The position numbers were made by a program, and so were the translations under genes. A stretch of DNA of 64,000 nt from Planctomycetota bacterium (GTDB lineage: Bacteria > Planctomycetota > UBA1135 > GCA-002686595): assembly GCA_014237855.1 (NCBI GenBank), contig JABACD010000016.1:62001-126000 (forward strand). Direction: 5' to 3'. Under the pieces are notes generated by a model. The model searched no databases. It saw only the letters and a list, made by a program, of their open reading frames with translations, and had not been told where the DNA came from. This document shows positions 1 to 17,070 of the stretch, in pieces. Every line of letters starts with the position of its first letter. Position 1 is the first letter of the stretch.

Positions 1-432
1 AGGACGGATCGCGACCGCTCGACCAGGGATGCCGTTGCCCGCCGGGTAGAGCCCCAGTGTTGTCACGCCGGCATCGAGGATTTCGGGATAGTAGATGTAC
101 CCAGGGTACAGCTCATCGGAAGCCAATTGCTGTGGCTGTGAGTCATTGCTGCCCCTGCTATCCATACCCTGTCGAGAGTAGGCGTTCACGAGCCCGGGAA
201 TGGCCACCGAATCGGGGCCAAGATCAACGACACGAATGCCTCGTTCGATGGGCAGGTCCTCTCCAACAACGGCGATCTTTCCATCCTCGACGAGGATCAC
301 CGCATTGTGAATCGTTCCATCACTGACCGTCTCTGCCTTGGCAACCTTGATCGCCATGACATCCGGCATTGCCAGACCAGGAGTGGGCGCGAGCACCGAG
401 CTCGTGGCCATGAGAATCGTATTTAGGATCAT
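1..432 (-). CDS. A10: secreted amidohydrolase-like protein (partial, C-terminus outside window)
   Basis: Last visible member of the ten-gene amidohydrolase operon; 144 codons are inside the window and the frame is open at the edge. ATG at 432 lies 34 bases after the A9 stop, with a purine-rich AAAGAAAG upstream. The N-terminus (MILNTILMATSSVLA) looks like a short Sec signal. The composite beta domain typical of amidohydrolases follows (AVILVEDGKIAVVGED), then an AIPGLVNAYSRQG segment where active members have PGLVDLHTH. The HxH metal motif is therefore missing, so the protein is probably a pseudoenzyme like A1 to A5. Later ligands cannot be checked because the gene leaves the window. Confidence 0.85.
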   Translation of the reverse strand, partial: MILNTILMATSSVLAPTPGLAMPDVMAIKVAKAETVSDGTIHNAVILVEDGKIAVVGEDLPIERGIRVVDLGPDSVAIPGLVNAYSRQGMDSRGSNDSQPQQLASDELYPGYIYYPEILDAGVTTLGLYPAGNGIPGRAVAIRP

Positions 433-466: not shown

Positions 467-1678
467 TCAGAATCGTTGTTTGCCTTCCTGGTATTCGTAC
501 TCGAGCTGCCCTTCAATCCAGACACGCTGCACATGGCTGCGTGGATCAAGCGGGTCGCCCGTGTACAGGACGATATCGGCGTCTTTACCTTCCTCGAGAC
601 TTCCGACGCGATCGTCAAGCCCAAAGGTGATTGCCGGGTTGATGGTCATTCCTCGAAGCATCTGGTATGAGTCAGCACCAAGCCGAGAGCTCATCGCACC
701 CTGCAGGAAGAACTCTTCCTGTGGGATGACGTTCGAGTCGGTGTTCAATGAGAAGTGCGGGACACCGGCTTTGGAGTACTCAGCTCCGCCTCCATTGATG
801 CGACCATTGGCGCTCGAGTACAGATCCATCATTCGCGGACCGTGATTCACAGGCACTCCCCAGGCAGCGATGGCCGGTGCAGCCTTCCAGCCATCGAAAG
901 ACCCATGACTGATCACACACCGCGTTCCAAACTTCCGGTGCCACATGCGAGCAGTATTCACGACCCCCTCGCTCCCGGCTGTGTGAATCAAGATCGGTAG
1001 CTCTCGGTTCAAGACCTTCTTCAGGTCCTCCAGGGCGAAGTCGAAGCGACCTTCACGAACTGCACCCCTGGCCTTTGCGCAGACGTCTTCCAGGATCCAG
1101 CCCATGCTCGCTCGGTTGTTGCCGAAGGCAAAGGTGCCCGCACGCCGCTGTGGGTTCGAATCCTGAGCTACCTTGAGCCCCCCAACACTCTCAAGCACCG
1201 CAGCATCATAGTGGGGACTTGCCTTCGTCTTGTAGAGCACGCCGAAGCCACCCATGTTGGTACCGCTCCCCGGGATTCCGAAGAGCGTGGTCACCCCAGC
1301 CGAGCATGCCAGACGCATCGCCCGATTGTCGGGTCGAACCGTGGCGCAAGCGCGTAAGCCCGGATTGACGGAACGCACCATGTCGTTGATATCACCCCAC
1401 CCACCGGTGTGAATGTGTGTGTGTAGATCAACCAGCCCCGGAACGGCCCACGACTCGGGAAACTCAAGAACCTCTACCTGACCGGAGATCGGCCTGGGTG
1501 CCCCGACGTAGACGATCTTTCCATCGGTGATCTCGATCTCGCCCGGCTCGAAGATCTGGTCGGCGCTGTTCATGGTCAGCAGCTTGCCACACTGCAAGAC
1601 CAGGTCCTGCGCGTTTGATCCGGGAGCCATGGCCAGCAGGGCCACGCCAAGAGTCAGGGCTGAGAGCTTGCTGGGCAT
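467..1678 (-). CDS. A9: secreted amidohydrolase with intact metal site
   Basis: A 403-residue amidohydrolase-superfamily protein (imidazolonepropionase/prolidase-like group). The start is taken as ATG 1678, which shares one base with the A8 stop (TGATG coupling); an in-frame GTG at 1684 would add two residues. Residues 1-24 form a Sec signal ending SNAQ. Visible candidate ligands are H86 and H88 (DLHTH), K169 (GGLKVAQ), H232 (ILIHT), H258 (VISHG) and D314 (LNTDS), the full set for a binuclear centre. It is the most divergent of the four intact paralogues: it has QDSNPQRR where A6 and A7 have QAGNPERW. The substrate is unknown; a periplasmic hydrolase of cyclic amides or peptides is the family-based guess. 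Confidence 0.9.
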   Translation of the reverse strand: MPSKLSALTLGVALLAMAPGSNAQDLVLQCGKLLTMNSADQIFEPGEIEITDGKIVYVGAPRPISGQVEVLEFPESWAVPGLVDLHTHIHTGGWGDINDMVRSVNPGLRACATVRPDNRAMRLACSAGVTTLFGIPGSGTNMGGFGVLYKTKASPHYDAAVLESVGGLKVAQDSNPQRRAGTFAFGNNRASMGWILEDVCAKARGAVREGRFDFALEDLKKVLNRELPILIHTAGSEGVVNTARMWHRKFGTRCVISHGSFDGWKAAPAIAAWGVPVNHGPRMMDLYSSANGRINGGGAEYSKAGVPHFSLNTDSNVIPQEEFFLQGAMSSRLGADSYQMLRGMTINPAITFGLDDRVGSLEEGKDADIVLYTGDPLDPRSHVQRVWIEGQLEYEYQEGKQRF

Positions 1679-3027
1679 CACCACAGGCGCACCCCCTGAG
1701 GAATTTCATAGACCAGTTCGCCGTCGATCCAGACATACTCGACCGTGGTTCGAGGGTCCGACGGATCACCTGTCAGGACGACCAAGTCTGCTCGCTTGTC
1801 GACCTCGATGCTTCCAAGGTGCTCTGCAATCCCACAGGTGATTGCGGGAACGATTGTCAGGCCTCGTACCGCGGCCATGTCAGTGTTGTCGAATCCATAC
1901 CGGACTCCCATCGCGGACTGCAGGGGCAGTTCCTCCTGAGGAACAACTGGGGCATCCGTGTTGAAGCCAACCATCTTCATGCCACGCTCTTGAAATCCCC
2001 AGGCGCTACCTTCGGCCCTGCCGTCCACGGGAAACCTTGTCGGGCTGGTTGGCCACATGACCTCACGTGGGCCAAGGATCGCCGGCACGCCGATGTCCCT
2101 GGCAACTCCACCCAAGAGCCAGGAGTCGAAGGAGCCATGGTCGATGAAGGTGGGAAAGCCAAACTCCATGCGTAGGATGCGGAGCGTCGAGAGGACCACC
2201 TGGAAGTACTGGGTATGGGTCGAGATGGCGATCTGTTCCTTGTAGAGATCGCGATAGACATCCAGATTGATGCGACGCTCAGGTGCAGCACCATCGCCGT
2301 CTTCAAAGGCTTCCCATCGCCGTGCATAGGCCTTGCCCTGCCGCAATGAGTAGCGTATGTGGTGATTCATCAGGGCGCGGTCCATCCGATAGCCCCAGCG
2401 CTTGGGATTGTCGCCCTGCGCAACCTTCAGAGATCCGGGATTGCGCACCAGCACCTCCTCGAAGTCACCCTCGTGGGTATTCAAGAGGATCCCCTGTCCA
2501 CCGATGTTCGTGCCCGACCCCGGTATGTAGAGGATCGTGGTGATCCCGGCAGCAAGCGGACGCTTGAGGCGATCGTTACCCGGCACTGCCGTGGCGCTGA
2601 CCCGCAGCCCTGGGTTGACCTGGAAGACCATGTCGTTGTAGCCCCGGGGACCGCCAACATGGCTATGCAGGTCGATCATGCCCGGCATGACCCACGAGCT
2701 TCCCACATCAAGTATGGGCGTACCCTCGGGGACCTCGACCTCGGAATCGGCGCCGACCGCGGCTATACGTCCGTCTCTGACCAGGATGACCGCGTGGTCG
2801 ACTGCCTGGCGCCCATCGAGCTCACAGAGGAGCACTTTCGATGCGCGAATTGCGTAGTTTCCACCGGAGGGTATGGCTTCGGTTCCCGGCTTGGCCTCGC
2901 CCCTTGCAGGAGCACCTGCGGCAATCGAAGCCAGCAGGCCCAAGCTCAATACACTGCGCATCCACACCCCGGCCACGGCCGATCCATCGGCCTCGAGCCT
3001 GCGTGAGCTGTGGAAGCGAGGCGCCAT
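1678..3027 (-). CDS. A8: secreted amidohydrolase with intact metal site
   Basis: A 449-residue amidohydrolase. The ATG at 3027 overlaps the A7 stop by one base (TAATG), which suggests translational coupling. From this start the export signal has a long, arginine-containing n-region before the hydrophobic stretch at about residues 23-40; ATG 2961 would give a conventional signal and cannot be excluded. Candidate ligands are H121 and H123 (DLHSH), K201 (GSLKVAQ), H271 (ISTHTQ), H297 (FIDHG) and D358 (FNTDAP). It shares with A6 and A7 the blocks GVTT-like/IPGSGTN, STHTQ, IDHG and PQEEL. It probably hydrolyses a small amide or lactam in the periplasm; the substrate is not evident. Confidence 0.92.
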   Translation of the reverse strand: MAPRFHSSRRLEADGSAVAGVWMRSVLSLGLLASIAAGAPARGEAKPGTEAIPSGGNYAIRASKVLLCELDGRQAVDHAVILVRDGRIAAVGADSEVEVPEGTPILDVGSSWVMPGMIDLHSHVGGPRGYNDMVFQVNPGLRVSATAVPGNDRLKRPLAAGITTILYIPGSGTNIGGQGILLNTHEGDFEEVLVRNPGSLKVAQGDNPKRWGYRMDRALMNHHIRYSLRQGKAYARRWEAFEDGDGAAPERRINLDVYRDLYKEQIAISTHTQYFQVVLSTLRILRMEFGFPTFIDHGSFDSWLLGGVARDIGVPAILGPREVMWPTSPTRFPVDGRAEGSAWGFQERGMKMVGFNTDAPVVPQEELPLQSAMGVRYGFDNTDMAAVRGLTIVPAITCGIAEHLGSIEVDKRADLVVLTGDPSDPRTTVEYVWIDGELVYEIPQGVRLW

Positions 3028-4391
3028 TACCAGCGGCGACCCTGTGTGCTAGCGTCGTAGACCTTCTTGCCCTCGGTGAAGATCATCTCGACTCCGCATC
3101 GAGGATCAGCCGGATCTCCATTGACCACGATCAGGTCAGCCTGCTTGCCAGGTTCGATGCTACCCACCAGGTGATCGATCCCTGCTGTCTTCGCGGGCAC
3201 GATCGTCAGCCCCCGAATTGTCTCGAGATTGTCCCACTTGAAGCCATAGCGAACCGCCATTGAGGCCTGCAGCGACAGCTCTTCCTGTGGAATCACCGGT
3301 GAGTCCGTGTTGAACCCGATCATCTCCAGGCCACCCTCCTGGTAGCCAGCAGCAACCCCCTGAATACGTTCGGGGTTCGTTCCCGCCCAGCTCATCATCA
3401 TTGTCGAGGGGACATCGATGTTTCGCGGGCCGAGGATCGCGTTGACGCCAAGTTCCTGCGCTCGGGGCGCGACTCGATAGGCGTCAAAGGTACCGTGGTC
3501 GATGAACACCGGCAGACCGAGTTCCTTGGCGACCATGGTCAAGGTCATGTTCGCAACCTGGTAGATCTGCGTATGGGTCGAGATCTGCGCCTCCTTGTTG
3601 TAGAGCGAGCGAATCACCTCGAACTGCAGATCCTTCTCCGGAAGAGGCTCCCCGTTGGCCTCGGCCTCCTCCCAGCGCTTGGCGTAGGCCACTCCTCGCT
3701 GGAGGGTGTTCCGGGTGTTCCAGTTCATGAATGAGCGCCCGACCCGGAACAGCCAGCGTTCGGGGTTACCCGCTTGAGCCAGCTTCATGGATCCAGGGTT
3801 TCGCACCTCCATGGCTTCGTAACCCTCGAGACCCAGCTTGAGGAGCACCCCCTGGCCGCCGATGTTCGTCCCCGAGCCGGGGATGAACAGCATGGTCGTC
3901 ACTCCACCGGCGAGCCCCTTCTTGAGCTTCGGATCACCTGGGCGCACCGCTGTGCTCGCCCGGATACCCGGGTTGGTCAGGTAGACCATGTCGTTGATGT
4001 CGAAGGTGCCTGCAACGTGAGCGTGGAGCTCCACCATTCCAGGCGCAAGCCACTGGTCGCCTATGTCGAGCACCTCATATCCCGCCGGGATGCTCACCTC
4101 CGAGGCAGGTCCAACCTCCTCGATCAGGCCGTCACGTATCAACACGATGGCGTTGTCTATGAATTGCTGCCCCTCAAGCGGAACTGTCAGCGCCTTGGCG
4201 GTACGAATAGCCAGGCCCTTGCCACCAGGTTCACCAGGGATGGCCAGGGCCGTTCTGATTGCTGGGCTCGAGGCTTGCTGAACACTCACCTGGGAGGTCT
4301 CAGCCGTCTGGACAGCCGTCGTCTCGGTGCCACCGCCGGCCAAGGCCGCGCCCGACAGGAATAGGAGAGCCGCCAGCGCAGAAGGGATCAT
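3027..4391 (-). CDS. A7: secreted amidohydrolase with intact metal site
   Basis: A 454-residue amidohydrolase. I place the start at ATG 4391, which directly begins a clean Sec signal (MIPSALAALLFLSGAALA); an in-frame TTG at 4409 would add six residues. A low-complexity T/Q/S-rich linker follows the signal (about residues 22-45). Candidate metal ligands are H123 and H125 (ELHAH), K203 (GSMKLAQ), H273 (ISTHTQ), H299 (FIDHG) and D363 (FNTDSP). It is closest to A6: both have NPERWLF and RSFMNWNTRNT before the helix AYAK(R/N)WE, so the two look like a recent tandem duplication. Its gene lies 41 bases after A6. Confidence 0.93.
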   Translation of the reverse strand: MIPSALAALLFLSGAALAGGGTETTAVQTAETSQVSVQQASSPAIRTALAIPGEPGGKGLAIRTAKALTVPLEGQQFIDNAIVLIRDGLIEEVGPASEVSIPAGYEVLDIGDQWLAPGMVELHAHVAGTFDINDMVYLTNPGIRASTAVRPGDPKLKKGLAGGVTTMLFIPGSGTNIGGQGVLLKLGLEGYEAMEVRNPGSMKLAQAGNPERWLFRVGRSFMNWNTRNTLQRGVAYAKRWEEAEANGEPLPEKDLQFEVIRSLYNKEAQISTHTQIYQVANMTLTMVAKELGLPVFIDHGTFDAYRVAPRAQELGVNAILGPRNIDVPSTMMMSWAGTNPERIQGVAAGYQEGGLEMIGFNTDSPVIPQEELSLQASMAVRYGFKWDNLETIRGLTIVPAKTAGIDHLVGSIEPGKQADLIVVNGDPADPRCGVEMIFTEGKKVYDASTQGRRW

Positions 4392-4432
4392 GCGTAATTG
4401 GTGTCTCAAGGGTCTTGTAGGAGGAGGTATGC

Positions 4433-5728
4433 TCAGTTGGAGGGGCTGGTAGCGCTGTCAAAGACGCGTTCGCCGTCGATAAAGACCATCTCCACGCTGG
4501 TGCGAGGATCGGCTGGATCGCCCGTGGTCACGATCAGGTCGGCATCCTTGCCTGCTTCCAGGCTTCCGACCAGGTGATCAATGCCCGCCGCGTTGGCCGG
4601 AATGATCGTGAGGCCTCGAACATGGTCGAGGTTTGAGTTGTCGAACCCGTAGCGCACTCCCATCGCCGCCTGCAGCGAAAGGTGCTCCTGGGGAACGATT
4701 GGTGAGTCCGTGTTGAATCCGACGCGCTTGTGGCCATTCTCCTGGTAGCCCGCCGCAACCCCGATGATCTTTCCATCGGTGTCCAGGAAGCCGCTGTAGG
4801 AACGGGCGATGGCCCGGGGTCCTAGAATCGCCGGCACGCCTGCGTCCTGGGCAAGCGCGCCTGCTCGGTACCCATCAAAGGTGCCGTGGTCGATAAAGAC
4901 GTCCAGGCCGAGCTCCTGCCGGACCATGGTGATCGTCATGAGCACCACCTGATAGATCTGAGTGTGCGTCGAGACCTGTGCCCGCTTCTCGTAGAGGTCT
5001 TTGAAGATCTGCAGCTGAGGATCGTGGTCCGGCCTTGATCCCTCTCCAGCTCGGTACCTCTCCCAGTTCTTCGCGTAGGCAATGCCACGGCGGAAGGTGT
5101 TGCGCGTGTTCCAGTTCATGAACGAGCGCCCAGGACCGAACAACCAACGCTCGGGATTGCCGGCCTGAGCCAGCTTCAAGGAGCCCGGGTTTCGCAGCTC
5201 GTTCTTCTCGTATCCGCCGGGCCCTGTCTTGATGAGCAATCCCTGTCCGCCCATGTTCGAGCCGGAGCCGGGGATGAAGAGAACTGTGGTCACTCCTCCC
5301 TTGTAGGCCCGTGCCAGGGCGCGATTGCTCGCTATCGTCGATGCACTCGCGCGCAGACCAGGGTTCGTCAGGTAGACCGAATCGTTGATGTCATTCGGAA
5401 AGAAAGGGCTGGGCGTGCCCACATGGCTGTGCAACCCAACCATTCCAGGGGAGACCCAGCAGCCTTCGAGATCGATCACAGCGAAGCCCTCGGGTACCTC
5501 AAGCTGTCCCCGGTGCCCAACTGAGCGGATCTTTCCGCCCTCGATGAGGACAACTGCGTTGTCAATCACCTGTTCCCCATCGAGCTCGCAGAGCAGCGCC
5601 TTGGAGGCAAGGAGTGCTATTCCTTCGTGACTCTCGGGCAATGCCAGGGCAGCCGCATCCACCACCGAGAAGGTAGTGAACACCAAGGCTGCTAGGCACA
5701 CGCCGTTGATTCGCTTGAAGGAAGGCAC
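4433..5728 (-). CDS. A6: secreted amidohydrolase with intact metal site
   Basis: A 431-residue amidohydrolase with a Sec signal (basic n-region MPSFKR, hydrophobic 9-26). Candidate ligands are H100 and H102 (GLHSH), K185 (GSLKLAQ), H255 (VSTHTQ), H281 (FIDHG) and D341 (FNTDSP). It is the first member of the operon in transcription order with a complete ligand set: everything upstream (A1 to A5) is degenerate, and A6 to A9 are all intact. The spacing is 24 bases from A5 and 41 to A7. The conserved VPQEHLSLQAAMG after the strand-8 Asp is shared with A7 and A8 and may shape the substrate pocket. Confidence 0.93.
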   Translation of the reverse strand: MPSFKRINGVCLAALVFTTFSVVDAAALALPESHEGIALLASKALLCELDGEQVIDNAVVLIEGGKIRSVGHRGQLEVPEGFAVIDLEGCWVSPGMVGLHSHVGTPSPFFPNDINDSVYLTNPGLRASASTIASNRALARAYKGGVTTVLFIPGSGSNMGGQGLLIKTGPGGYEKNELRNPGSLKLAQAGNPERWLFGPGRSFMNWNTRNTFRRGIAYAKNWERYRAGEGSRPDHDPQLQIFKDLYEKRAQVSTHTQIYQVVLMTITMVRQELGLDVFIDHGTFDGYRAGALAQDAGVPAILGPRAIARSYSGFLDTDGKIIGVAAGYQENGHKRVGFNTDSPIVPQEHLSLQAAMGVRYGFDNSNLDHVRGLTIIPANAAGIDHLVGSLEAGKDADLIVTTGDPADPRTSVEMVFIDGERVFDSATSPSN

Positions 5729-5752: not shown

Positions 5753-8584
5753 CTAGTGCAAGCGGACTTCGTGGCCGCCGACCCAGACACGCTGGACGCT
5801 CGTACTGAGATCGAGGGGGTCACCATCAAGGAGCAGGACATCAGCATCCAGGCCAGCTCTCAGGCTCCCAACACGGCCATCGATCGACATCATTTCTGCA
5901 GCATCGGAGGTCAAGGCTCGAAGCGCGCCCGTGGGGCTCATGCCTTGACTGACGGCGTAGGCCGCCATCAAGGGCAGCTCCGCGGCTCCCTCTTCGGCCT
6001 TGCTGTGAAAGGCAACGCGGATCCCAGCATTGGCCAGTTCTGCGTATCGGTTGCGTCGCTCGAGACCCATCTTGGAGTTGCTATAGATCACCCGATGGTC
6101 CAGCAGGACTCCACGAACCCGGCCTACAAGATGATCGGAGACCTTCCAGGCCTCGTCTGCGCCAGAGAGCACAGGCTGCACGCCAATGGACTCGAAGTAA
6201 TCGACACAGTCGAGGATTTCATCGGACCGATCAACGCGGACGACTATCGTGACCTTCCCTTCCAGGGCGGCGCGAAGGGGCTCCAGGTTTGGATTGATTC
6301 CAGGGGACTTGGGCTTGCCCTTGGGCGGCTTGGTCTCCTCCTCCACCACCCTCCGGCGTTCGGAGAGCCCGGCCACCACATACTCCTTCGAGGTTTGGGC
6401 TGCCTCGAACTCGTACTCTCGGCCCTTGACGCCAACTTTTCCAGTGAGCTTCTCCTCTTCGGTCTTGGCACTCAGGGTGACCTGTCCCGAAGAGCCCAAG
6501 CCGGACAGAGAGACCTCGTGGCCCTCACGGGTTCCATGAACGGTTACCAATGAGCTGGAGAGCGTGTTGCAGCGGAGGCGCCCCTCAAGAGAGGTGCCTT
6601 GCTGATCGACTTGAATGCGAAGCCGCTGAGAATTGCCATTCTCATCATCGAATTCGGCCAGCCAGACGCCAGTGATGGGCAGGGCGGGCTCCTCTTCACC
6701 CTTCTTCTTCTTCTTCTTTTTCTTCTTGTCCTTCTCGTCGTCCTCTTCGTCGTCCTTGTCCTCGTCGTCCTCCTCGTCCTCTTCCTCCTCGTCCTCTTCC
6801 TTGGGCTCGGGCGCGGGCGGGACCCATTCGGCCATGGCCATCTCGTAGGCCTCCCACTTCTCCGCGTAGCTGACAACCTTCCCCATCAGACTCTTGACCG
6901 CCCCACCAGCACTCAGCCGATTGGAGTTGCTCCAGACCAGGTTCACAGCTGCCGGATCGGCAACAATGATGTGATCCAGATCGGAACCTGCGGGCTTGTA
7001 GGCCATCGCGGGAGCCCCCGAGCTGCTCGTACCTCTTGGGGTCAGGACCACCGTGGTGACGCCTGCCTGGGCCACCCGACGATCTGCGAAGTCACCCGGC
7101 TCGACGATCGCTTCGTACTTGAACTTCAGCTGAGGCACCTTGGCCGATCCCTCCAGTCCGAGGTATCCCATGGTGTCGATCATTCCGGGCATGGCTGCCG
7201 CACCACGAACCACCGTCGAGCCAATGGGATGGGAAACCCTCCTGCCCACCTCAACGATCTGGCCATCCTTCATCAGTAGCTGACCGGGGCTGAGGACCTC
7301 TCCATTGCCGACGTGGAGCTCTTCAACCTCGAGAACGACCGCTCCGGCTTCCGCCGACTTGTAAGCAACTTCACCATTGACCCAGGTTGCAATGACGCCG
7401 GCCTCTGATGAGAGGGGCGGGCCATTGAGAATCACGAGGTCCGCGTCCTTGCCGAGCGAGATGCTGCCCACACGGTCCTCGACTCCAAGAACCCGTGCCG
7501 CGTTCAAGGTAACGGCCGCGAGCGCATCCTCATGGCTCATTCCACCCTTCCGGGCCAGCTCTGCGTGGAAACGCAAGTCACGAAGACTGCTGGATGAGCC
7601 GCCTGTCACCGCCACGGTGACGCCGGCTTGGTTCAGCTTCGAGGCCAGCTCGGCATCCGGCCAGGTACTCTCCTCTCCCTTACCTTGGTCGCGTGGCGTC
7701 CTGTTCGTGTTCACCCGTGAGTGCACAACAACGGGAATGTCCGCCTTCCCCAGCAACTCCGAGAGTTCACCGGCCTGTCCAGCACCGTCAATGACCAGGG
7801 GAAGTCCGTTCTCGGTGAAGAAGTCCACCAGAGCACGCACCTCTCCGGTGGTCTCTGCAGTCATGCGCCAGGTGGTGCCTTCCTTGATGAGCCCTGCGAG
7901 GTCGGCCCCCGCATAGGGCCCGTACTCGAGGCTCTCTCCTGGCTTTCCGGCGAGCGACAGGAGTTCGGTCAGCGCAACGATTGCGCCCATGGTTGTGCGG
8001 GGCAACTGGGGTCGCTCTACACCAAGGCCCACATCCACAGTCGCCGGTACCGGCGGCTCCCAGTAACCGCGCGTCCTGCGAGCGTCTGCGCTGATGGAGC
8101 CGTGGATCGAGGCTGAGTCGGAGATGACCCGACCTTCACCAAGCTCACCGCCCAACTTGACGACTGCGCCATGTCCGGCAATGAGCCGCCCTCGAGCAGG
8201 CGCCAGGTAGGCCGTGGTAACGCCACCCGAAAGATAGTTGCCGTAGTTACTCCAAGCATCGAACCCGTCCGCTGCAGAGAGGCCGGGCTCGGCTGTTCGT
8301 TCCGAAGGACGGCTGCCACCAATGTTGCTATCGACTGCTATCAGCCCAGGAATGATCACAGCATCCGGGCCATAGTCCACCACGCGAGCACCCTCCAAGG
8401 CCTCGACATCCTTACCGACACCAACGATCTTTCCATCGCTGATAACGAGCGTGCCGCCACCCTCGATGATGCGCCCCCCATCCATGGTGTAGATCGTTCC
8501 AGCTTGAATCGCAACGAGGCCGGTACCCTCGAGGGGCTGACCTCCCGCCAGAGCAGTCGCGAGTAGAAGTGCAGAAAACATCAC
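5753..8584 (-). CDS. A5: double-domain amidohydrolase-like pseudoenzyme with charged tract and beta-rich insert
   Basis: A 943-residue exported protein with two tandem amidohydrolase-fold domains (about 25-415 and 415-943). Neither keeps metal ligands: where active paralogues have HxH, domain 1 reads AVDSNIG and domain 2 reads DTMGYLG. The strand 5, 6 and 8 ligands are replaced by WRMTAET, VIDGAG and VTGGSSSS in domain 1, and by VVRVDRS, VLSGAD and AFHSKA in domain 2. Domain 2 is interrupted at about residues 590-630 by a run of Glu and Asp and then Lys (nine consecutive Lys). A roughly 90-residue beta-rich segment follows (TGVWLAEFDD to YEFEAA), lipocalin-like in pattern but unassigned. The gene abuts A4 with no gap. 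A scaffold or binding role is inferred. Confidence 0.9.
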   Translation of the reverse strand: MMFSALLLATALAGGQPLEGTGLVAIQAGTIYTMDGGRIIEGGGTLVISDGKIVGVGKDVEALEGARVVDYGPDAVIIPGLIAVDSNIGGSRPSERTAEPGLSAADGFDAWSNYGNYLSGGVTTAYLAPARGRLIAGHGAVVKLGGELGEGRVISDSASIHGSISADARRTRGYWEPPVPATVDVGLGVERPQLPRTTMGAIVALTELLSLAGKPGESLEYGPYAGADLAGLIKEGTTWRMTAETTGEVRALVDFFTENGLPLVIDGAGQAGELSELLGKADIPVVVHSRVNTNRTPRDQGKGEESTWPDAELASKLNQAGVTVAVTGGSSSSLRDLRFHAELARKGGMSHEDALAAVTLNAARVLGVEDRVGSISLGKDADLVILNGPPLSSEAGVIATWVNGEVAYKSAEAGAVVLEVEELHVGNGEVLSPGQLLMKDGQIVEVGRRVSHPIGSTVVRGAAAMPGMIDTMGYLGLEGSAKVPQLKFKYEAIVEPGDFADRRVAQAGVTTVVLTPRGTSSSGAPAMAYKPAGSDLDHIIVADPAAVNLVWSNSNRLSAGGAVKSLMGKVVSYAEKWEAYEMAMAEWVPPAPEPKEEDEEEEDEEDDEDKDDEEDDEKDKKKKKKKKKGEEEPALPITGVWLAEFDDENGNSQRLRIQVDQQGTSLEGRLRCNTLSSSLVTVHGTREGHEVSLSGLGSSGQVTLSAKTEEEKLTGKVGVKGREYEFEAAQTSKEYVVAGLSERRRVVEEETKPPKGKPKSPGINPNLEPLRAALEGKVTIVVRVDRSDEILDCVDYFESIGVQPVLSGADEAWKVSDHLVGRVRGVLLDHRVIYSNSKMGLERRNRYAELANAGIRVAFHSKAEEGAAELPLMAAYAVSQGMSPTGALRALTSDAAEMMSIDGRVGSLRAGLDADVLLLDGDPLDLSTSVQRVWVGGHEVRLH
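6701..6802. repeat. Trinucleotide-rich tract encoding the Glu/Asp then Lys run of A5
   Basis: On the plus strand this is an almost pure CTT/CTC/GTC tract (GAG, GAC and AAG codons on the coding strand). It encodes an acidic stretch followed by nine lysines within the second amidohydrolase domain of A5. The frame stays open on both sides, so it is translated. Such tracts can slip during replication, so length variation between related strains would be expected. Confidence 0.85.
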
Positions 8585-10090
8585 CTAGTTCTCCTCGTCC
8601 TCGTGACCTTCATGGTCATCGTCCTTCTCTTCTTCGTTCTCGCCCTCGTCGGGCTCCTTGTCGTCTTTCTCCTCCGGTTCGTCGTGCTTGTGAGGAGTTC
8701 CTGTCTCCATCTCTGCCGAGGTGTTCTCTGGCTGAGCGCCGGTCTCAAGGTGCCGCATGCGGACATCCGTGCTTCGGTCGTAGACATGGTTGCCTTCGAC
8801 CACCACCTGTTCGACATTTGACATCACGCTCAGCGGATCTCCGGAGAAGATAACCACGTTGCCGTCCTTGCCCGGTGCCAATGATCCGACACGGTTGGAA
8901 AGGCCCGTGATCTCGGCCGCTGTCGTGGTCACGGCTGCCAGTGCCTGTTCGCGTGTCATGCCGTGGCCAACGCAGAGGGCCGCCTGGTACCAGAGCGACT
9001 TGCCTGACGTACCCGCCGAGCGCAACGCAAAACGAACTCCCTTGTCCTGGAAGACTGCCGGGACAAAGGTCTCCTTCTCCTCGCCAGTCACAGGGTCCCG
9101 CTCCACATGTGTGAGCACTGAAGAGAGAATGACGGGGATGTTGTGCTGCTTGATCAGGTCAGCCGCCTTCCAGCAACCGCTACTAAGGCAGAGTACAGTC
9201 CTGTTCAGGAACCCGTTGTCCTTGGCAGTACGAATAGCCGTCTGGACATCACCGGGCGTCGAGCAATAGAAGAAGACCGCTGTCTTGCCCTCGACTATTC
9301 CGAGCAGGGGCGCCTTCTTCTCGTCGATCTCCCAACGTGGAATCATCTCCAGATTGGAGACCTTCCATCCATTTCCTCCCATGGGTCGTCCCTTTGAAGT
9401 CTCCTCGTCGGCCTCGCGGCCCTGATAGAGCGCTTCGCGTGTCGCCAGGTCAACGCCGTCTCGCTTCTCCTGAACAACCCCTTCGAGATACCGCCTGAGG
9501 TCGTCAAAGGTCTGTCGCAACGCGAGGGTCTGAGTAGCTCGAGACTTGCCACTCTTCGGGGCCGCAGACATCGCGATGCCTGAGTTTGGCTGTACCGTCA
9601 TCTCTTCAACCGTCATACCAACAGGCTTGACGATGTAGCCCATTCCACCCACGACGCATGAACCTCCCTGCTGGACGTTCAGGGTGGTAACTCCGGAGCG
9701 AAGGGAATCTTCGAAGTAGAAGCTGACCGGGTCGATCGAGTCCTTCACGTTCAGGAAGGCAGCAACGTCAATGTTCTCGTTAGCACGGTCCATGCCCGAG
9801 TTGGTCAAGGCCTCGACAAAACCGGGGAAGGCTACAGAGTTCGGATACTCCTTCACCTCGGCATTCCACGGGTACTTGATGTCCTTACCAACGGCGGTGA
9901 TGCGACCGTTCTCGATCACAATTGTTCCGTTCTCAATCGGCTCACCGTCGAGAGTGATGACCTGGCCAGCCTTGATGACGATGTTGCCATCGCTAAAGGG
10001 CATGGCGTTGGTCGCCGCCGTCAGGGCTGTGGCAGCGAGGCAGGTCGCGACTGCGGTCCGGGCCAGGGTTCCAAGCTTTTGATTCTTCAT
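8585..10090 (-). CDS. A4: amidohydrolase-like pseudoenzyme with acidic, His-containing tail
   Basis: A 501-residue protein with a Sec signal (MKNQKLGTLARTAVATCLAATALTAATNA). The amidohydrolase fold is recognisable from the N-terminal beta domain (VITLDGEPIENGTIVIENGR) and the C-terminal RVGSLAPGKDGNVVIFSGDPL. All ligands appear lost: AFPGFVEALTNSG replaces PGLVDLHTH, AVFFYCST replaces the strand-5 His, CLSSGCW the strand-6 His, and ALRSAGTSG the strand-8 Asp. From about residue 466 the protein ends in a tail of Glu, Asp and Lys with several His (for example HKHDEPEEKDD and DDHEGHEDEEN) that might bind metal or a basic partner. The stop codon touches the A5 start. Confidence 0.9.
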   Translation of the reverse strand: MKNQKLGTLARTAVATCLAATALTAATNAMPFSDGNIVIKAGQVITLDGEPIENGTIVIENGRITAVGKDIKYPWNAEVKEYPNSVAFPGFVEALTNSGMDRANENIDVAAFLNVKDSIDPVSFYFEDSLRSGVTTLNVQQGGSCVVGGMGYIVKPVGMTVEEMTVQPNSGIAMSAAPKSGKSRATQTLALRQTFDDLRRYLEGVVQEKRDGVDLATREALYQGREADEETSKGRPMGGNGWKVSNLEMIPRWEIDEKKAPLLGIVEGKTAVFFYCSTPGDVQTAIRTAKDNGFLNRTVLCLSSGCWKAADLIKQHNIPVILSSVLTHVERDPVTGEEKETFVPAVFQDKGVRFALRSAGTSGKSLWYQAALCVGHGMTREQALAAVTTTAAEITGLSNRVGSLAPGKDGNVVIFSGDPLSVMSNVEQVVVEGNHVYDRSTDVRMRHLETGAQPENTSAEMETGTPHKHDEPEEKDDKEPDEGENEEEKDDDHEGHEDEEN

Positions 10091-10135: not shown

Positions 10136-11371
10136 TTATTTGCGGGGATCATTGACCAGTTCACCATCTAGAACGACACCCACAACTCGCGAAGTCAGTT
10201 CAAAGGGGGTGCCATTCCAGAGGGCGAGGTCAGCGTCTTTTCCGACCTCGATGCTGCCCACTCGGTCATCGATACCGACCATGCGAGCAGGGTTGATTGT
10301 CACGGCAGCGAGAGCTGAGTCGAAGGAGAGGCCTCCGCGTCGCGCATGGGCTGCCTGCTGTCCGAGTGTTTCTCCTCCAGCCTTGGCGTTGTGGCTCGAG
10401 AGAGCAACCGGCACACCCGCCTCATCGAGCTTTGCAGCGCAGTCCGCAGCAAAGAAGGCGCCATCTGTCGTGCGGCCTGAGGCTCTGTAAGGGGGGAGCA
10501 CAACAGCCGTCCCCGTCCGAACCAAGAAGTCGATCTCGCGCCAGGCCTCTGCACCTGCATCGATGATCAATTGCATGTTCGGCTTGCCTTCTCCGGCCAT
10601 CTCCTCCTTGAGGAACACCGCCGTACGGATGTCCTGGGTTGCCCAGGCCTGCACGAACACGGGCAGGTCGCCATTCAACGCTTGCAGTAGCTGCGGCAAG
10701 CCGTCGAAGGCCCGCTCCTTGTCTCCTTCCGCCTGGAGGGCATCGTACATCGCCTTCCGCCAGGTCCACTCAACCCCCATGCGCGTCGTTGGTCGGCGCG
10801 AATAAAAGTCTGTCGGGCGTCCGAAGGCTGGGTGATTCTTGCTACTCGGCTGGGATCCGATGGCACCTCGTAGAGCAACGTTCGACTTGATCGTTCGTGC
10901 CTCTATGGAGTTCGACCCTCCGGTCTTGAGGGCGACCGACAGGCCTCCGATGCAGTTGTTGTCGTACGGACTTGCAACGACGCTGGTCACACCGTTTCGA
11001 AGCTGGCGATCCCAGTCCCGACTGAACGGGTCGAGCGACAGATCCACGCGGATCCATGGAGTGACCTCTTCGGTCTCCTCAACCGAATATCCGTCCGGAT
11101 AGATGCGAGCGCTCAAGTCGACCATGCCTGGCGTGATCGCTGCAACATGCAGGTCCTCGTCGCCAGGCTCGGCGCCAGGAGTAATCGCAGTGATCTTGCC
11201 GTCCGCAATGACCACCATCGCATTCTCGATCGTCTCTCCAGCTCCCGTGTAGACAGCGTCCGCGTAGACGGACATCTCAGCTACAGGTGTGGCCTCAACA
11301 GCCACGGGCAACGTAGGCGCGGGCACTGAGGCGGTGATCGCTGCCAGTAAGGCTTCAGTCAGGGGGATCAT
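10136..11371 (-). CDS. A3: amidohydrolase-like pseudoenzyme
   Basis: A 411-residue amidohydrolase-fold protein. ATG 11371 overlaps the A2 stop by four bases (ATGA). The N-terminus (MIPLTEALLAAITASVPAP) is hydrophobic but lacks a basic n-region, so export is likely rather than certain. ITPGMVDLSARI replaces PGMVDLHSH, VFVQAWATQ replaces the strand-5 His segment, LIIDAGAEA the strand-6 segment, and VALSSHNAK the strand-8 Asp. The C-terminal RVGSIEVGKDADLALWNGTPF is typical of the family. With no metal ligands visible, hydrolase activity is unlikely. Confidence 0.88.
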   Translation of the reverse strand: MIPLTEALLAAITASVPAPTLPVAVEATPVAEMSVYADAVYTGAGETIENAMVVIADGKITAITPGAEPGDEDLHVAAITPGMVDLSARIYPDGYSVEETEEVTPWIRVDLSLDPFSRDWDRQLRNGVTSVVASPYDNNCIGGLSVALKTGGSNSIEARTIKSNVALRGAIGSQPSSKNHPAFGRPTDFYSRRPTTRMGVEWTWRKAMYDALQAEGDKERAFDGLPQLLQALNGDLPVFVQAWATQDIRTAVFLKEEMAGEGKPNMQLIIDAGAEAWREIDFLVRTGTAVVLPPYRASGRTTDGAFFAADCAAKLDEAGVPVALSSHNAKAGGETLGQQAAHARRGGLSFDSALAAVTINPARMVGIDDRVGSIEVGKDADLALWNGTPFELTSRVVGVVLDGELVNDPRK

Positions 11372-12489
11372 TGATTACCTCCGTGAACTAGCTTGCCATC
11401 GATATAGACGGCCTTGACGGTGGAAGAGAGGGCGACAGGGTCAGCGCTCCAGAGCACCAGGTCGGCGTCCAGGCCACGCGCAATCCGGCCAACGCGCCCC
11501 GACACTCCCGCGATCGCGGCGGCATCGCCCGTCAGGGCCTTCATTCCAGCGCTGGGACTCAGTCCGTCGCGTACACAGAGCGCCACTCCAAAGCGCAAGC
11601 TCTCGGGGTGGCGATCAGGCGCCTCCAACCCGAAACCAATTCGAACCCCGGCCTTCGAGAGGCCGACAACCGAACGAATGCCTCGCGAGCCCTCCCCCAC
11701 GTTGAAGGGTGTACAGACCACGTCGAGCCCTGATTCCTTGATCGCTGGGACCACGTCCTCTGCCCAGTAGGAACCGTAGAGAGCTCCCTTGAGATCGAAC
11801 CTGGCAGCAAAGGCAATGGCTCGCAACGTCTCGGCGCGATCATTGACGTCCATCAAGACGGGCAGTGAACCTCCAGCAGCACGGGACACCGAGCCCTCTG
11901 GATTGGAGAACTGCTTCTCCAGCTCCCCCATGGCGCCGGCGTAGCTCGTGGGGAACTTGTTTCGATTGAGGGCGTCGCTCGACAGTCCAAGCATCAGCTG
12001 TGCTGCCGGCTTGACGACCCGCCCCCCACTCGTCTTGACCACTGCGGTGCGTCCGCCGATCAGACTGCGCGGGGAAGGCGCGAGAACCAGCGTTGTGATC
12101 CCCACTCCAAGCGCACGACTGAAGTCCTTGTGCTCGGGGTTGAATGCGTATCGCGCTTCCGCCTCCGGCATCACCGTGCGAGTTGACTCATTCAGCTCAC
12201 CTACGGCGCCGTCTTCTGACTGAAGTGCTATCAGCCCAGGAGAGAGCGCGCCATCGTGAACAATGAGTTCAGCGCCCGAAGGAACCTTGATGTTCGCGCC
12301 TACCTGCGTGATGACACCGCCCTTCACAAGGATGACGCAGTCTTCGATCGAGCTGCCATCGCCTGTATGGACCAACTTGGCCTGGAAAGCGGTCATGCGC
12401 TCGACCGCAGCAGTCGGCGACGGTATGTCCGTATCGCCTGGGAAGATTGCCGCGAGGGCGACCGCGAGGAGTCCGTTCAGCATGGTCAT
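11368..12489 (-). CDS. A2: amidohydrolase-like pseudoenzyme
   Basis: A 373-residue amidohydrolase-fold protein, the shortest complete member. It starts at ATG 12489, nine bases after the A1 stop, and its last four bases overlap A3. Family features are the beta-domain segment VILVKGGVITQVG, PGLIALQSEDG at the place of HxH, GVGITTLVLAPSP, and the C-terminal RVGRIARGLDADLVLWSADP. The metal ligands are absent (ALQSED; VLMDVNDR for the strand-5 site; GFGLEAPD for the strand-8 site). A weak signal sequence (MTMLNGLLAVALAAIFPG) suggests export with the rest of the operon. Confidence 0.88.
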   Translation of the reverse strand: MTMLNGLLAVALAAIFPGDTDIPSPTAAVERMTAFQAKLVHTGDGSSIEDCVILVKGGVITQVGANIKVPSGAELIVHDGALSPGLIALQSEDGAVGELNESTRTVMPEAEARYAFNPEHKDFSRALGVGITTLVLAPSPRSLIGGRTAVVKTSGGRVVKPAAQLMLGLSSDALNRNKFPTSYAGAMGELEKQFSNPEGSVSRAAGGSLPVLMDVNDRAETLRAIAFAARFDLKGALYGSYWAEDVVPAIKESGLDVVCTPFNVGEGSRGIRSVVGLSKAGVRIGFGLEAPDRHPESLRFGVALCVRDGLSPSAGMKALTGDAAAIAGVSGRVGRIARGLDADLVLWSADPVALSSTVKAVYIDGKLVHGGNQ

Positions 12490-12498
12490 AGTCAGTGG

Positions 12499-13965
12499 TT
12501 AGTTGTCCTCGGGGGTGACTGCCGGACGGCCGCCGCAGAACACGTACTGGATCTTCGTGAAGGGCTCGAGCGGCATGCCGTCGAGAATGAGCAGGTCAGC
12601 GTCCTTGCCAAGCTCTACGCTCCCAACGCGATCAGCCACGTCAAAGGCACGGGCAGCTCCAATCGTCAGAGCTTCAAGAGCCTGCTCCTTCTCGAGCCCA
12701 TGCCCCACGGCCAACTGCGCGAGGAGAGGAAGGTCCCTGGTGGTATCAGCATCACGACCGCCGCTGCCCAGCAAGACAGGCACACCGGCAGCAGCCAGTT
12801 CACCTGCGAGTGAGAGTGTCGCGCCAGTGAACTCGTCCTTCTTGGTTGTACCGCGGAGCGACGGCCAGACGATGACGGGGATGCCTCGCTCAGCAAGGTC
12901 CTCAGCACAACTGAGCGCCTCGGACCCTCCGGCAATCACGAGACGCAGGCGACTGAATCTTTCCGTGCCTGCAAGTAGGTTGCGAATGGCAGAAGAACGG
13001 TGCACCTCAACGACGAGCGGGATCTCGCCCTCGGCCACCCTGGCCAGTGCTGCCTTGTCCTCATTGAACTTCGGCTCGCGCGGCTTCTTGTCCTCCTTGT
13101 ACTTCGACTCCTTGTGTTCTTTTCCGTCCTCTTTCGCCTTCTTGACCTTCTTGTCTCGGTCCTTCTTTGCCTTCTTGAAGTCGTCCTCTAGCTCTTCCTG
13201 CTTCTCAGCTATCGCCTCTTGCCACTCCTTGAGTTTGAACTTGTATTCGACTTCGGCACGGCGGTAAGCCTCTCCGGCTTCGACGCTACTCACAACAGCC
13301 TCGATCTCGGATACGCGGTCGAAGACGTCGGTCGGGCGATCACCGGAGATCATCTGAAAGGTGCCGTCACCCATTCGCTGGAAGGTAGCCCCTCGATTCA
13401 CCGAGTGACCCACCGACATCGCCAGGTCCGCATCGGGGAGCAGGACTGCGTGCTTTGGGTCATTGAGGGTCGGATCCAGCCGCACGAAGGCGCCCAGCCC
13501 ACAGACCTTGCCCTGCCAACCACCCTGCACACGAGCACTTGTGACTCCAGCACGCAGCGCCTCCTGGAAGAGATGGTCCACGTCGAACAAGTTCAACCCA
13601 TCAGCCGTGCGCGCGGACTCCGCCATCTTCGTATCCGCAAGGACGCCGTTGTCAACGCCAAGCGCCGACCAGGGGTCGATGAAGGAGGCGCAAACCACGG
13701 CACCCTTCAGCTCGGTGGCGCCGTCGGGGAGAGCAATGTCAGGCCCGATCTCCAGGATGCGTCCGTCACTGATCAGGACCGAGGTGTTCTCGTGGACCAC
13801 CCCTGGGCGCTCGATCAGCTTTTCGGCACGTATGACATAGACCGCCGGGTCCTCCGATGCAGGGGCGCCAGGAAGCTCGAGCCCAGGAAACGCACTTCCC
13901 ATCGGGGAGACGCTAAGCCCACAGGCCAGACTCACCAGGGACGACCAGATTACCTTCGACCTCAT
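12499..13965 (-). CDS. A1: amidohydrolase-like pseudoenzyme with lysine-rich coiled insert (first gene of the operon)
   Basis: A 488-residue protein. The start is set at ATG 13965, preceded by AGGAG about ten bases upstream and beginning a clear Sec signal (MRSKVIWSSLVSLACGLSV); the frame is open further upstream to 14124 but that part shows no protein-like features. The fold is marked by VLISDGRILEIGPD and RVGSVELGKDADLLILDG. HxH is replaced by SFIDPWSAL, the strand-6 site by LVIAGGSEA and the strand-8 site by LLGSGGRDA; a lone His survives in VVEVHRS. Residues of about 245-302 are a helical, Lys/Glu-rich insert with repeated DKK, KED and KEH units, at the same topological place as the charged insert in A5. 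Confidence 0.88.
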   Translation of the reverse strand: MRSKVIWSSLVSLACGLSVSPMGSAFPGLELPGAPASEDPAVYVIRAEKLIERPGVVHENTSVLISDGRILEIGPDIALPDGATELKGAVVCASFIDPWSALGVDNGVLADTKMAESARTADGLNLFDVDHLFQEALRAGVTSARVQGGWQGKVCGLGAFVRLDPTLNDPKHAVLLPDADLAMSVGHSVNRGATFQRMGDGTFQMISGDRPTDVFDRVSEIEAVVSSVEAGEAYRRAEVEYKFKLKEWQEAIAEKQEELEDDFKKAKKDRDKKVKKAKEDGKEHKESKYKEDKKPREPKFNEDKAALARVAEGEIPLVVEVHRSSAIRNLLAGTERFSRLRLVIAGGSEALSCAEDLAERGIPVIVWPSLRGTTKKDEFTGATLSLAGELAAAGVPVLLGSGGRDADTTRDLPLLAQLAVGHGLEKEQALEALTIGAARAFDVADRVGSVELGKDADLLILDGMPLEPFTKIQYVFCGGRPAVTPEDN

Positions 13966-14058
13966 CCTCTTTATTCTCCTAACTCTCGTGACGCCCGTAA
14001 GGGACAGGCGGTTGGTATCGGCTGGGTTTGCGATGGCAATGGGGAACTCGCATTGGAA

Positions 14059-14099
14059 GGGGGGTCTCCCGGTTCCGTAACTAGGGGGGTCCGATAATA
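14059..14099 (-). promoter_or_regulatory. Possible promoter and direct repeats in the leader of the amidohydrolase operon
   Basis: On the minus strand a TATTAT hexamer (14094-14099) resembles a -10 element, without a convincing -35. It lies about 130 bases upstream of A1. Immediately downstream the nine-base motif GACCCCCCT occurs twice (at 14083-14091 and 14058-14066, minus strand) with a 25-base period, which would suit an operator bound by a dimer on successive helical turns. This is pattern-spotting only; no regulator is encoded next to it. Confidence 0.22.
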
Positions 14100-14220
14100 G
14101 GGGAAGATCGGCGGAGCCGGTCATAAGCTGAGCTGTTAACTGCTGTACTCAGTGGACTTACGGTCGACTTACCAGGCCTGGGAAGGAGCTGGCAAGCTGT
14201 ACGATTGAGCATCGGCGAAG

Positions 14221-14841
14221 GTGGCGGAAATTGAGGACCAGATCAGCCAATTGGCACCCTCAGAGCCGGTAACCGTTTGTCACCCGTTTTTATTTCAAAT
14301 CCGCCGTTCGGAGATTCGAATCTGCTGGCTTGTCGCGCTTGTGCCCGAACCTTCCCACCGAGACTTACACCCACTCCTGCTGGAGCCCGATTACTGGCGC
14401 GACAGGCTCAGGCAACAGCGCTCAGTACGACCCTTCCTGCTCCTGACCCCACGCCCCGACCTCTCTACAGGCGCTTGCGAGGTCCAAGAGATCCGCTTCC
14501 AAGCCCATGACGGGGTGCGCCTTTGGGGCCTGGTGGGCCGCTGCCCGCTCCTTCGAGACGAGCAGCCAGCGGCTTTGAGGATTGTAGGTCCGTGTCATCT
14601 ACCCGCTATCGACGTGAACTCGGTGCAACTTGGTTGTACCGAGTTCGTCATTCAGTCTCCGCCCGGGCGTCGGCTCGAGGATCGGGTTCTGGACGCGGTC
14701 CGGCTGTGCGAGATTGCCTCGAGGTTCGACAGTGTGGACGCCGACCAGGTTGGATTCGGAGCCGTGGAAAGCCTTGGCTTGCCTGATGAGGCACGGATTG
14801 CCGACGGACTTCGAGCCTCCGGCATGATCCACTCCGATTAG
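14221..14841 (+). CDS. Hypothetical protein, possibly a degenerate alpha/beta-hydrolase
   Basis: A 206-residue frame with a GTG start at 14221; the true start is uncertain (another in-frame GTG at 14341). Codon choice in the second two thirds looks coding. The segment VQEIRFQAHDGVRLWGLV and the later RVLDAVRLCEIASRF...VDADQVGF resemble acetyl-xylan-esterase-like hydrolases around their first beta strands and the helix before the nucleophile. The nucleophile elbow (GxSxG) is missing: VGFGAVESLG takes its place. It could be a truncated or inactivated hydrolase. No signal peptide is seen. It is divergent from the amidohydrolase operon and stands alone. Confidence 0.4.
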   Translation: MAEIEDQISQLAPSEPVTVCHPFLFQIRRSEIRICWLVALVPEPSHRDLHPLLLEPDYWRDRLRQQRSVRPFLLLTPRPDLSTGACEVQEIRFQAHDGVRLWGLVGRCPLLRDEQPAALRIVGPCHLPAIDVNSVQLGCTEFVIQSPPGRRLEDRVLDAVRLCEIASRFDSVDADQVGFGAVESLGLPDEARIADGLRASGMIHSD

Positions 14842-15113
14842 AAGAACCACCCATATTGGTTGGTGCTTGGCTTTCACTAAAGGCCCTTTTAGTTTTCACA
14901 CGGCGCACCGAGATCAGCGCCATTGCTGCCTCCTCAGGTTCGAATTCACTCTCTGGATCGGACTAGCGGCGTCAACAAATGGGCCCTAAAGACTCAACAA
15001 AACGAGCCCCCGGCCCCACAGTATCCCTGCGCGTATAATCCCGAGGTGTATCCTCCTTGGCCGTGCCCCACTTCCGTGGAGGCTCAAGTGAGGAGCCCTG
15101 GCGCGCCACCTTC

Positions 15114-15992
15114 TCAGTAGCCGCCGCAGCCCTGGTCGCCCTGGACGATGGCAACCGAGGCGGAGGCGCCGATTCGCGTGGCGCCGGCCTGGATCATGGC
15201 CTGGGCCCCCTCCTGGTCACGGACCCCTCCAGAGGCCTTGACCCCCATGGAGGGCCCGACCGTGCTCCGCATCAAGGCCACGTCCTCGACCGTGGCCCCC
15301 CCGCTGGAGAAGCCAGTGGAGGTCTTCACGAAGTCGGCACCTGCCTGTTTGGCCAGCTTGCAGGCGCGGACCTTCTCATCATCGGTCAGGAGGCAGGTCT
15401 CGAGGATCACCTTGAGGCGAGCCCCCAGCTGGTGGCAGACCTCTGCCAGTCCGGCAATGTCCCGCCGGACGAGGTCATTCTCGCCAGACTTGAGGGCGCC
15501 CACGTTGAGGACCATATCCACCTCACAGGCACCATCCTCGATTGCCCTGCGTGCCTCGTAGGCCTTGACCTCCGGTGCCGAGGCCCCCAACGGGAAGCCC
15601 ACGACCGTGCAAACGAGGACTCCCGAACCGGACAGAATCTCCGCACAGCGACGGACCCAGGTGCCGTTCACGCAGACGCTCGCGAAGCGGTTCGTGAGTG
15701 CCTCATCGCAGAGCTCATCGATCTGAGCTGCAGTGGCGTCGGGTTTGAGCAAGGTGTGATCGATTGTCGCCCCCAGGGTTCCCAGGGCCGTGGCGTTCCC
15801 ACTTCGAATCGCAACCCGGCAAGCCCCCGCATCGAGCACCGACTTGACGCTCTCCGGGCAGACCTGGACATGAATCGAGGTGCAGCCGAGAGCTCCGAGG
15901 TCAGCGCCCTCAATGCCGTGCTCAACCAGCTGTTGAGCAATCTCGGTCAGGATGCTCTCCAAACGCGCTTCGTCAATCGCTGAATTCCGCAT
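15114..15992 (-). CDS. deoC: Deoxyribose-phosphate aldolase with N-terminal extension
   Basis: Cleaves 2-deoxyribose-5-phosphate to glyceraldehyde-3-phosphate and acetaldehyde, the last step of deoxynucleoside breakdown. The class I aldolase core starts around residue 77 ([11 protein letters not shown]) and has the Schiff-base lysine K223 in FVKTSTGF, the second lysine K252 (GVKASGG) and the VDMVLN Asp159. At 292 residues it is longer than usual because of about 75 extra N-terminal residues. The first 25 ([19 protein letters not shown]) form an amphipathic helix of the type that targets cargo to bacterial microcompartments. rpiB lies 46 bases upstream on the same strand, as in sugar-phosphate microcompartment loci; no shell gene is in the window. 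Confidence 0.95.
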
Positions 15993-16038
15993 GTATACCT
16001 CTGCTCGAGACCCACCGGGCCCGCTAGTCCTTCTTCCT

Positions 16039-16857: not shown

Positions 16858-17070
16858 GGGCGGCAGAGTCTAACCGGAATGATCAGGAAGATTCTTCCAA
16901 TGTGTGTCGGTGGAGGGTGCCGCCGGCTCTCTAGTCTCCACCTGGGACCAAGCAGCCGCCTCGAACCCGTATCCAGACTGAGGTAGGTCCATCCCCGATA
17001 GATCTAGCCGAGCCTCAATCTCGAGGGTATCGAAGGCCGATGGATCCGGAACTCAGCCCACTCAGCACTC

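Follow-up and report, generated by a model that had tools for sequence, protein, structure and literature searches.

The enzymes nearest in kind to A5, the planctomycete protein described here, are metal-dependent amidohydrolases of the imidazolonepropionase-prolidase type, represented by the structures 3ooq, 3mtw, 3n2c and 2qs8, which fall under COG1228. The closest solved fold to A5 domain 1 is 3ooq from Thermotoga maritima (presumably locus TM0814), with a Z of 43.4 and an rmsd of 2.6 over 351 residues, and the two were also matched by profile (E 2.3e-47). In the alignment 3ooq retains the HxH motif, the His residues and the Asp, and is of the active type, whereas A5 is without them in both of its domains. 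A5 also differs from enzymes of the 3ooq type in being a tandem fusion and in carrying a tethered barrel.

Dihydroorotase homologues belong to the same superfamily as the amidohydrolases. The dead partners known so far from this superfamily occur one at a time, the Pseudomonas ATCase complex being an example. An inactive dihydroorotase homologue is reported to be indispensable for the ATCase dodecamer of P. aeruginosa (PMC7053772), so that a dead superfamily member is needed by its partner enzyme; the comparison with A5 is one of how such a system works and nothing closer. In the Pseudomonas assembly a single dead chain serves one unrelated enzyme, whereas the planctomycete row has seven dead genes (eight dead domains) among live paralogues of the same kind, and the N-termini resemble signal peptides.

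A5 is encoded in a stretch of 64,000 nucleotides, henceforth referred to as the window, from a host genome of 5.3 Mb (contig G000:C20). Open-access searches returned no literature on this gene cluster or on the barrel module, an absence that carries little weight.

Layout of A5 and loss of its metal sites

The A5 gene (5753..8584 (-)) has a GTG start, with ATG as the next codon, and encodes a double pseudo-amidohydrolase of 943 amino acids that is predicted to be exported; its N-terminus resembles a signal peptide by inspection. Domain 1 (7349..8515 (-), residues 24-412) is a pseudo-amidohydrolase with no metal ligands and is followed by the first part of domain 2 (6827..7342 (-), residues 415-586), the last element of which is the helix SYAEKWEAYEMAMAE. 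Domain 2 is then interrupted by a charged tether (6689..6826 (-), residues 587-632), consisting of an acidic run and then nine lysines in a row at residues 620-628 (window 6701-6727), and by a predicted eight-stranded beta-barrel of avidin type (6350..6688 (-), residues 633-745), in which ITGVWLAEFDD is read from residue 637. A second linker and the rest of pseudo-amidohydrolase domain 2 complete the chain (5756..6349 (-), residues 746-943).

Membership of A5 in the amidohydrolase superfamily fold, a (beta/alpha)8 barrel with a composite beta-sandwich, was indicated by two Pfam Amidohydro_1/3 stretches (85 and 80.7 bits) and by the structural match to 3ooq. When aligned to A3, the six ligand positions (the two of the beta1 HxH, beta4 Lys, beta5 His, beta6 His and beta8 Asp) read D/N/H/T/gap/G in domain 1 and M/Y/N/R/gap/K in domain 2 of the window copy. 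The HxH was missing in 46/46 sequences for domain 1 and likewise in 46/46 for domain 2, the 46 being one copy from each of 45 named loci plus that of the window. With the HxH, beta4 Lys, beta5 and beta6 His and beta8 Asp missing in both domains, A5 falls outside the catalytic metallo-amidohydrolases. Both the fold and the deadness are well supported.

The preliminary description had reported two ligand-free amidohydrolase domains in one chain, the second split by an acidic tract, nine lysines and a beta segment placed after a helix that reads AYAK(R/N)WE in the active paralogues. All of these features were recovered. The insert lies directly C-terminal of the helix SYAEKWEAYE, and the counterpart helix reads AYAK(R/N)WE in A3 and A4 and AYARRWE in A2. 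The feature goes beyond chance: tract and beta segment were present in 57/57 usable named relatives (60 loci were read, of which 57 were long enough) and in 17/17 more distant same-order loci at about 27-34% identity; the distant inserts of L130, L132, L133, L136 and L140 were left out of the wider alignments, in which 12/17 were used. Barrel and tether were kept in 58/58 aligned A5 copies. Nearly all of the named relatives are labelled Planctomycetota and some just "bacterium", and they include the complete genomes Pla86 (CP036296) and Poly30 (CP036434).

The tether is predicted to be disordered, with pLDDT below 50 at model positions 572-608. Its length ranges from 29 to 77 residues (median 46), and the median charged fraction is 0.69. 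Since the longest Lys run varies from 2 to 10 among A5 proteins, the nine lysines of the window copy are an instance of composition and not a motif. Judged from these alignments, the composition of the tether is kept and its sequence is not.

Predicted fold and relatives of the inserted barrel

AlphaFold2 modelling of the insert from 58 sequences gave a closed barrel of eight strands with a mean pLDDT of 90, and the barrel again reached about 90 within the full-length A5 model (pLDDT 86.6). The beta segment is accordingly predicted to be a real domain, as first proposed, and not a disordered linker. In a second-look structural comparison, the insert matched zebavidin (4bj8) with a Z of 12.8 and an rmsd of 1.8 over 92 residues, followed by the designed barrel b10 (12.7), quinohemoprotein amine dehydrogenase (QHNDH, 12.6) and Cap15 (12.2). 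The eight-stranded closed up-and-down barrel that characterizes the avidin-type fold is found in the predicted insert; because the four matches are tied within Z 1, the fold class is secure but the family is not. Foldseek ranked designed barrels and fatty-acid-binding proteins highest, at E of about 1e-3, the latter with a TM of about 0.5 and an rmsd of about 5. The earlier term "lipocalin-like" therefore holds at the level of an up-and-down beta-barrel but goes no further, as the best structural matches are avidin-type and other eight-stranded barrels and no Pfam family was matched. No lipocalin was among the 50 structural matches listed for the insert, which by itself excludes nothing.

By sequence, the window insert had no match to any Pfam family at E up to 1, which rejects its assignment as a lipocalin on that basis, and its matches in the PDB were at chance level only. 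Membership in the Avidin family (PF01382) was rejected, with no Pfam match and with hhalign probabilities of 0.2-6% against two planctomycete avidins; a PF01382 search of 246 genomes of the phylum returned 3 matches (G113, G204 and G229), all away from A5 genes. Avidins carry a GxW motif. The insert has GxW in strand 1, as do both planctomycete avidins compared, but it is unlike zebavidin and streptavidin in that its predicted interior is hydrophobic and it is embedded in another protein. The lipocalin-like domain GH43_C (PF16369) was likewise rejected as the family of the insert: the window copy has no match, and direct comparison with a single GH43_C domain from a planctomycete returned a probability of 0.5%, although the related array L178 does match PF16369 (38.2 bits against a cut-off of 23.4).

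Strand alternation over the 58 sequences was regular, with most inward positions hydrophobic in 83-100% of sequences and with conserved glycines. Arg39 of the insert segment is present in 100% of the 58 and is predicted to face outward. It forms part of a predicted outward Arg patch (window 6350-6688, segment residues 24, 26 and 39) in which R24 is kept in 84% and R39 in 100% of the 58 sequences; the patch is a trait of family f1, the 45 named loci defined below, and is not kept in more distant copies.

A profile search for the same insert in other proteins, as had been suggested, did locate relatives. A genome scan with the single insert sequence gave no match, while use of the alignment as query did. 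In the host genome, the insert profile found a further match at the C-terminus of a 669-aa amidohydrolase (L120:8849-10855 (-), G000:C24) and another at the N-terminal end of a serine hydrolase that resembles beta-lactamases. A wider profile added a 1232-aa Sortilin/BNR and PDZ protein (L173:98-3793 (+), G000:C28), with the module in its second half. Across the phylum, module matches at E up to 1e-3 were found in 76/246 genomes, and 19 of these matches were examined for their setting. The module stands at the C-terminus of M28 peptidases and at the N-terminus of an alpha/beta-hydrolase and of beta-lactamase-like proteins; small stand-alone arrays consist of little besides three or four copies in tandem, as counted by inspection (L178:669-2072 (-), L179:796-1935 (+), L186:432-1532 (+)). 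Profile comparison of module and insert gave 93-97% probability for four relatives, against 3.7% or less for shuffled controls; since those four had been found by the same kind of profile, the result counts as a consistency check. On the strength of these profile matches, the barrel is a mobile module carried by exported planctomycete hydrolases, BNR/PDZ proteins and stand-alone arrays. Neither this mobility nor the place of A5 as one position in a conserved pseudo-amidohydrolase row had been part of the preliminary description.

Two side observations concern these settings. Next to the 669-aa amidohydrolase of L120 lies an 888-aa double amidohydrolase, the first domain of which retains an HxH-type motif. 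Relatives of the BNR/PDZ protein in L174 and L183 carry one or two module copies.

The barrel was missing from 9 out-of-class A5 copies of the same row (L211-L216, L218, L220 and L224), where the site holds no more than a charged linker or short loop; a further copy, in L217, is cut by a contig end. The barrel is thus dispensable for the cluster. A series from short loop to charged linker to linker plus barrel is plausible, with change in either direction. Full-length coverage by the A5 profile was counted, among the matches listed, in 37/246 genomes of the phylum, all with an insert match, but this agreement is in part circular: a copy has to contain the insert to be covered without a break, and barrel-less copies appear as broken matches; a further count of 154/154 genomes refers to any amidohydrolase match and not to A5 orthologues. 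In an A5-like ORF of L219 (G160), the insert site is occupied by a beta-rich but divergent loop; this loop was missed by the insert profile and reached 24.6% in the profile comparison with the insert, and it is perhaps a drifted barrel.

The gene row and its dead positions

A5 is one of eleven co-directed amidohydrolase-like genes in the order A9, A8, A7, A6, A5, A4, A3, A2, A1, A0 and Am1. The row begins with the pseudo-amidohydrolase A9 (12499..14124 (-)), which has a charged tract in the same loop as A5, and continues with the pseudo-amidohydrolases A8 (11368..12489 (-)), A7 (10136..11371 (-)) and A6 (8585..10090 (-)), the last with an incomplete ligand set. Downstream of A5 lie four paralogues with all six metal ligands, A4 (4433..5728 (-)), A3 (3027..4409 (-)), A2 (1678..3027 (-)) and A1 (467..1684 (-)), and then the N-terminal part of the pseudo-amidohydrolase A0 (1..432 (-)), the rest of which is in L119 beyond the window and is followed by Am1. 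Within the window, neighbouring genes of the row touch, overlap or are separated by at most 46 bases, and the pseudo-subunit ORFs are open over 373-943 codons.

The exact order A9-A8-A7-A6-A5-(1-5 actives)-A0-Am1 was found in 44/45 named loci, the core in 45/45, and the row was on one strand in all. These 45 are the loci of at least 18 kb among the 60 named (L057-L116), and the 45th, L087, is a short locus. They form family f1, whose flanks are conserved as well (adjacent region 43/45, Glycos_transf_3 gene 38/45), so that order within f1 alone is weak evidence. Outside f1 the flanks change: Glycos_transf_3 is the sole recurring flank gene in 7 in-class loci (3/7), and in 13 out-of-class loci the row is ordered with 0 recurring immediate flank genes (flanks of 0 to 5 kb a side), one of these loci, L209, having one match to a more distant window ORF. 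A5 adjoins A6 in 19/23 out-of-class loci, and of the other four, two are cut on that side and two, L221 and L222, are without such a row; out-of-class loci give no estimate of frequency, as they were picked by their A5 or insert matches.

The f1 flanks comprise DeoC-like, RpiB-like and Glycos_transf_3 genes (window 14209-16869 and L119:4276-5526). Their apparent identities suggest a nucleoside-salvage neighbourhood.

The HxH was present in 150/150 sequences of A1-A4 type and was missing in both A5 domains, A6, A7, A9 and A0, while an HxH-type motif occurred in 2/46 A8 sequences. For Am1 the ligand state was taken from the alignment, as the motif pattern missed its true beta1 site. In no dead group is a full ligand set the rule, and every one of them shows a gap where the beta6 His would stand. 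The positions nevertheless carry characteristic residues: Tyr40/45, Arg45/45, Lys38/45 and Arg39/45 in A0, Ser40/46, Arg41/46, Gln39/46 and His43/46 in A7, and Trp46/46 in A9. Polar residues are also retained in A6 (His38/46, Lys38/46), at the beta4 position of A5 domain 1 (His39/46) and at the second beta1 position of A5 domain 2 (His23/46).

In a tree of 215 domains, in which the subunit labels derive from profiles of the same groups, A0, A5 domain 1, A5 domain 2 and A6 each formed a clade of 20/20, with 20/21 for Am1, 19/20 for A7, 18/20 for A8 and 16/20 for A9, the last with low support (0.085). Nearly all dead positions thus appear, from this tree, to be clades of their own across the class and other families of the phylum. 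Median identity was 56% for dead A6 and 54% for dead A7, against 55% for active A3 and 53% for active A1; A8 (41%) and A5 (48%) fall below the actives, and A9 is also less conserved. Charged tracts were found in A5 (45/45), A9 (45/45), A0 (44/44), Am1 (34/44), A6 (20/45), A7 (7/45) and A8 (0/45), and in 2/145 actives. They are a habit of the dead subunits.

Possible roles of A5 and its neighbours

On the reading that we tentatively favour, a single operon encodes a hetero-oligomeric amidohydrolase complex; A5 would be one of its subunits, exported and catalytically dead, and the barrel would serve it as an accessory arm for docking. The complex is suggested by the fixed order, tight spacing and position-specific clades of the row, by an order that outlives the flanks outside f1, by the conservation of the pseudo-subunits and by their position-specific dead-site residues; tandem duplication alone can be enough to keep genes adjacent. 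Catalysis would fall to the one to five paralogues of A1-A4 type, which keep a binuclear metal site and whose substrates are probably dipeptides or similar amides. The pseudo-subunits A5-A9, A0 and Am1 would hold fixed positions; they would stabilize or regulate the actives and might also present substrate. The charged flexible tether of A5, with the folded barrel on it, would have arisen from the beta4-alpha4 loop of domain 2. Since the insert lies between these two elements, barrel topology implies that it probably leaves from the catalytic face, and the inserted barrel may act as a docking or capping arm that extends across the dead site or reaches a neighbouring subunit. With greater reserve, the row may be pictured as an ancient exported machine of the Planctomycetota, with about a dozen mostly dead amidohydrolase domains locked in position like ring complexes with non-catalytic subunits; the avidin-type barrel of A5 would then be a recruitable arm, an unclassified module shared with other exported hydrolases.

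The main rival, which we regard as less likely, holds that the pseudo-amidohydrolases are stand-alone exported ligand binders. Arg, Lys and Trp would replace the metals and an anion or peptide would be bound uncleaved, with the inserted barrel adding a second, lipophilic pocket, in a capture-and-digest operon with no complex. The position-specific conserved residues at the dead sites of A0, A7 and A9 fit such a role, as do the predicted hydrophobic interior of the barrel in nearly all 58 sequences and the fatty-acid-binding proteins among the Foldseek matches. A tightly packed core of Leu, Val and Ile would, however, mimic a lipophilic pocket, and the strict collinearity and position-specific clades exceed what independent binders need. 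Activity of A5-type domains by a metal-free or mononuclear mechanism appears improbable: polar residues are kept at some positions of both A5 domains and of A6, but no dead position retains a metal-binding set, the gap at beta6 His extends to every dead group, and the variable replacement at ligand positions within A5 argues against a catalytic role.

A similarly low and marginally smaller chance is given to the row being debris of tandem duplication, in which neutral drift lets dead copies persist and a common beta module was captured by chance as a functionless insert. The absence of the barrel from 9 out-of-class A5 copies and the scatter of its homologues over unrelated proteins would be expected of such debris. 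Against it stand the long open frames, conservation about equal to that of the actives, the order and identity of positions kept over class and phylum, and the retention of barrel and tether in all 58 aligned A5 copies. That the insert is merely a disordered, low-complexity linker is scarcely credible; the flanking tract is indeed charged and predicted disordered, but the segment after it is modelled with a pLDDT of 90 in isolation and of about 90 within the full chain, resembles solved barrels with Z values reaching 12.8 and recurs elsewhere as a module.

In this row eight dead domains stand next to one to five live ones in an order fixed over the class and beyond, so that the function of pseudoenzymes can be tested in a lineage for which complete genomes exist (Pla86 and Poly30). 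The barrel module, found on several kinds of hydrolase, was missed by Pfam in the window copy and in most other settings scanned, so that its assignment would help to annotate many planctomycete proteins at once.

In five loci (L194, L199, L200, L206 and L210) one more gene lies between or close to the actives; it is weakly A1-like and without the HxH pattern, and is possibly a further dead position.
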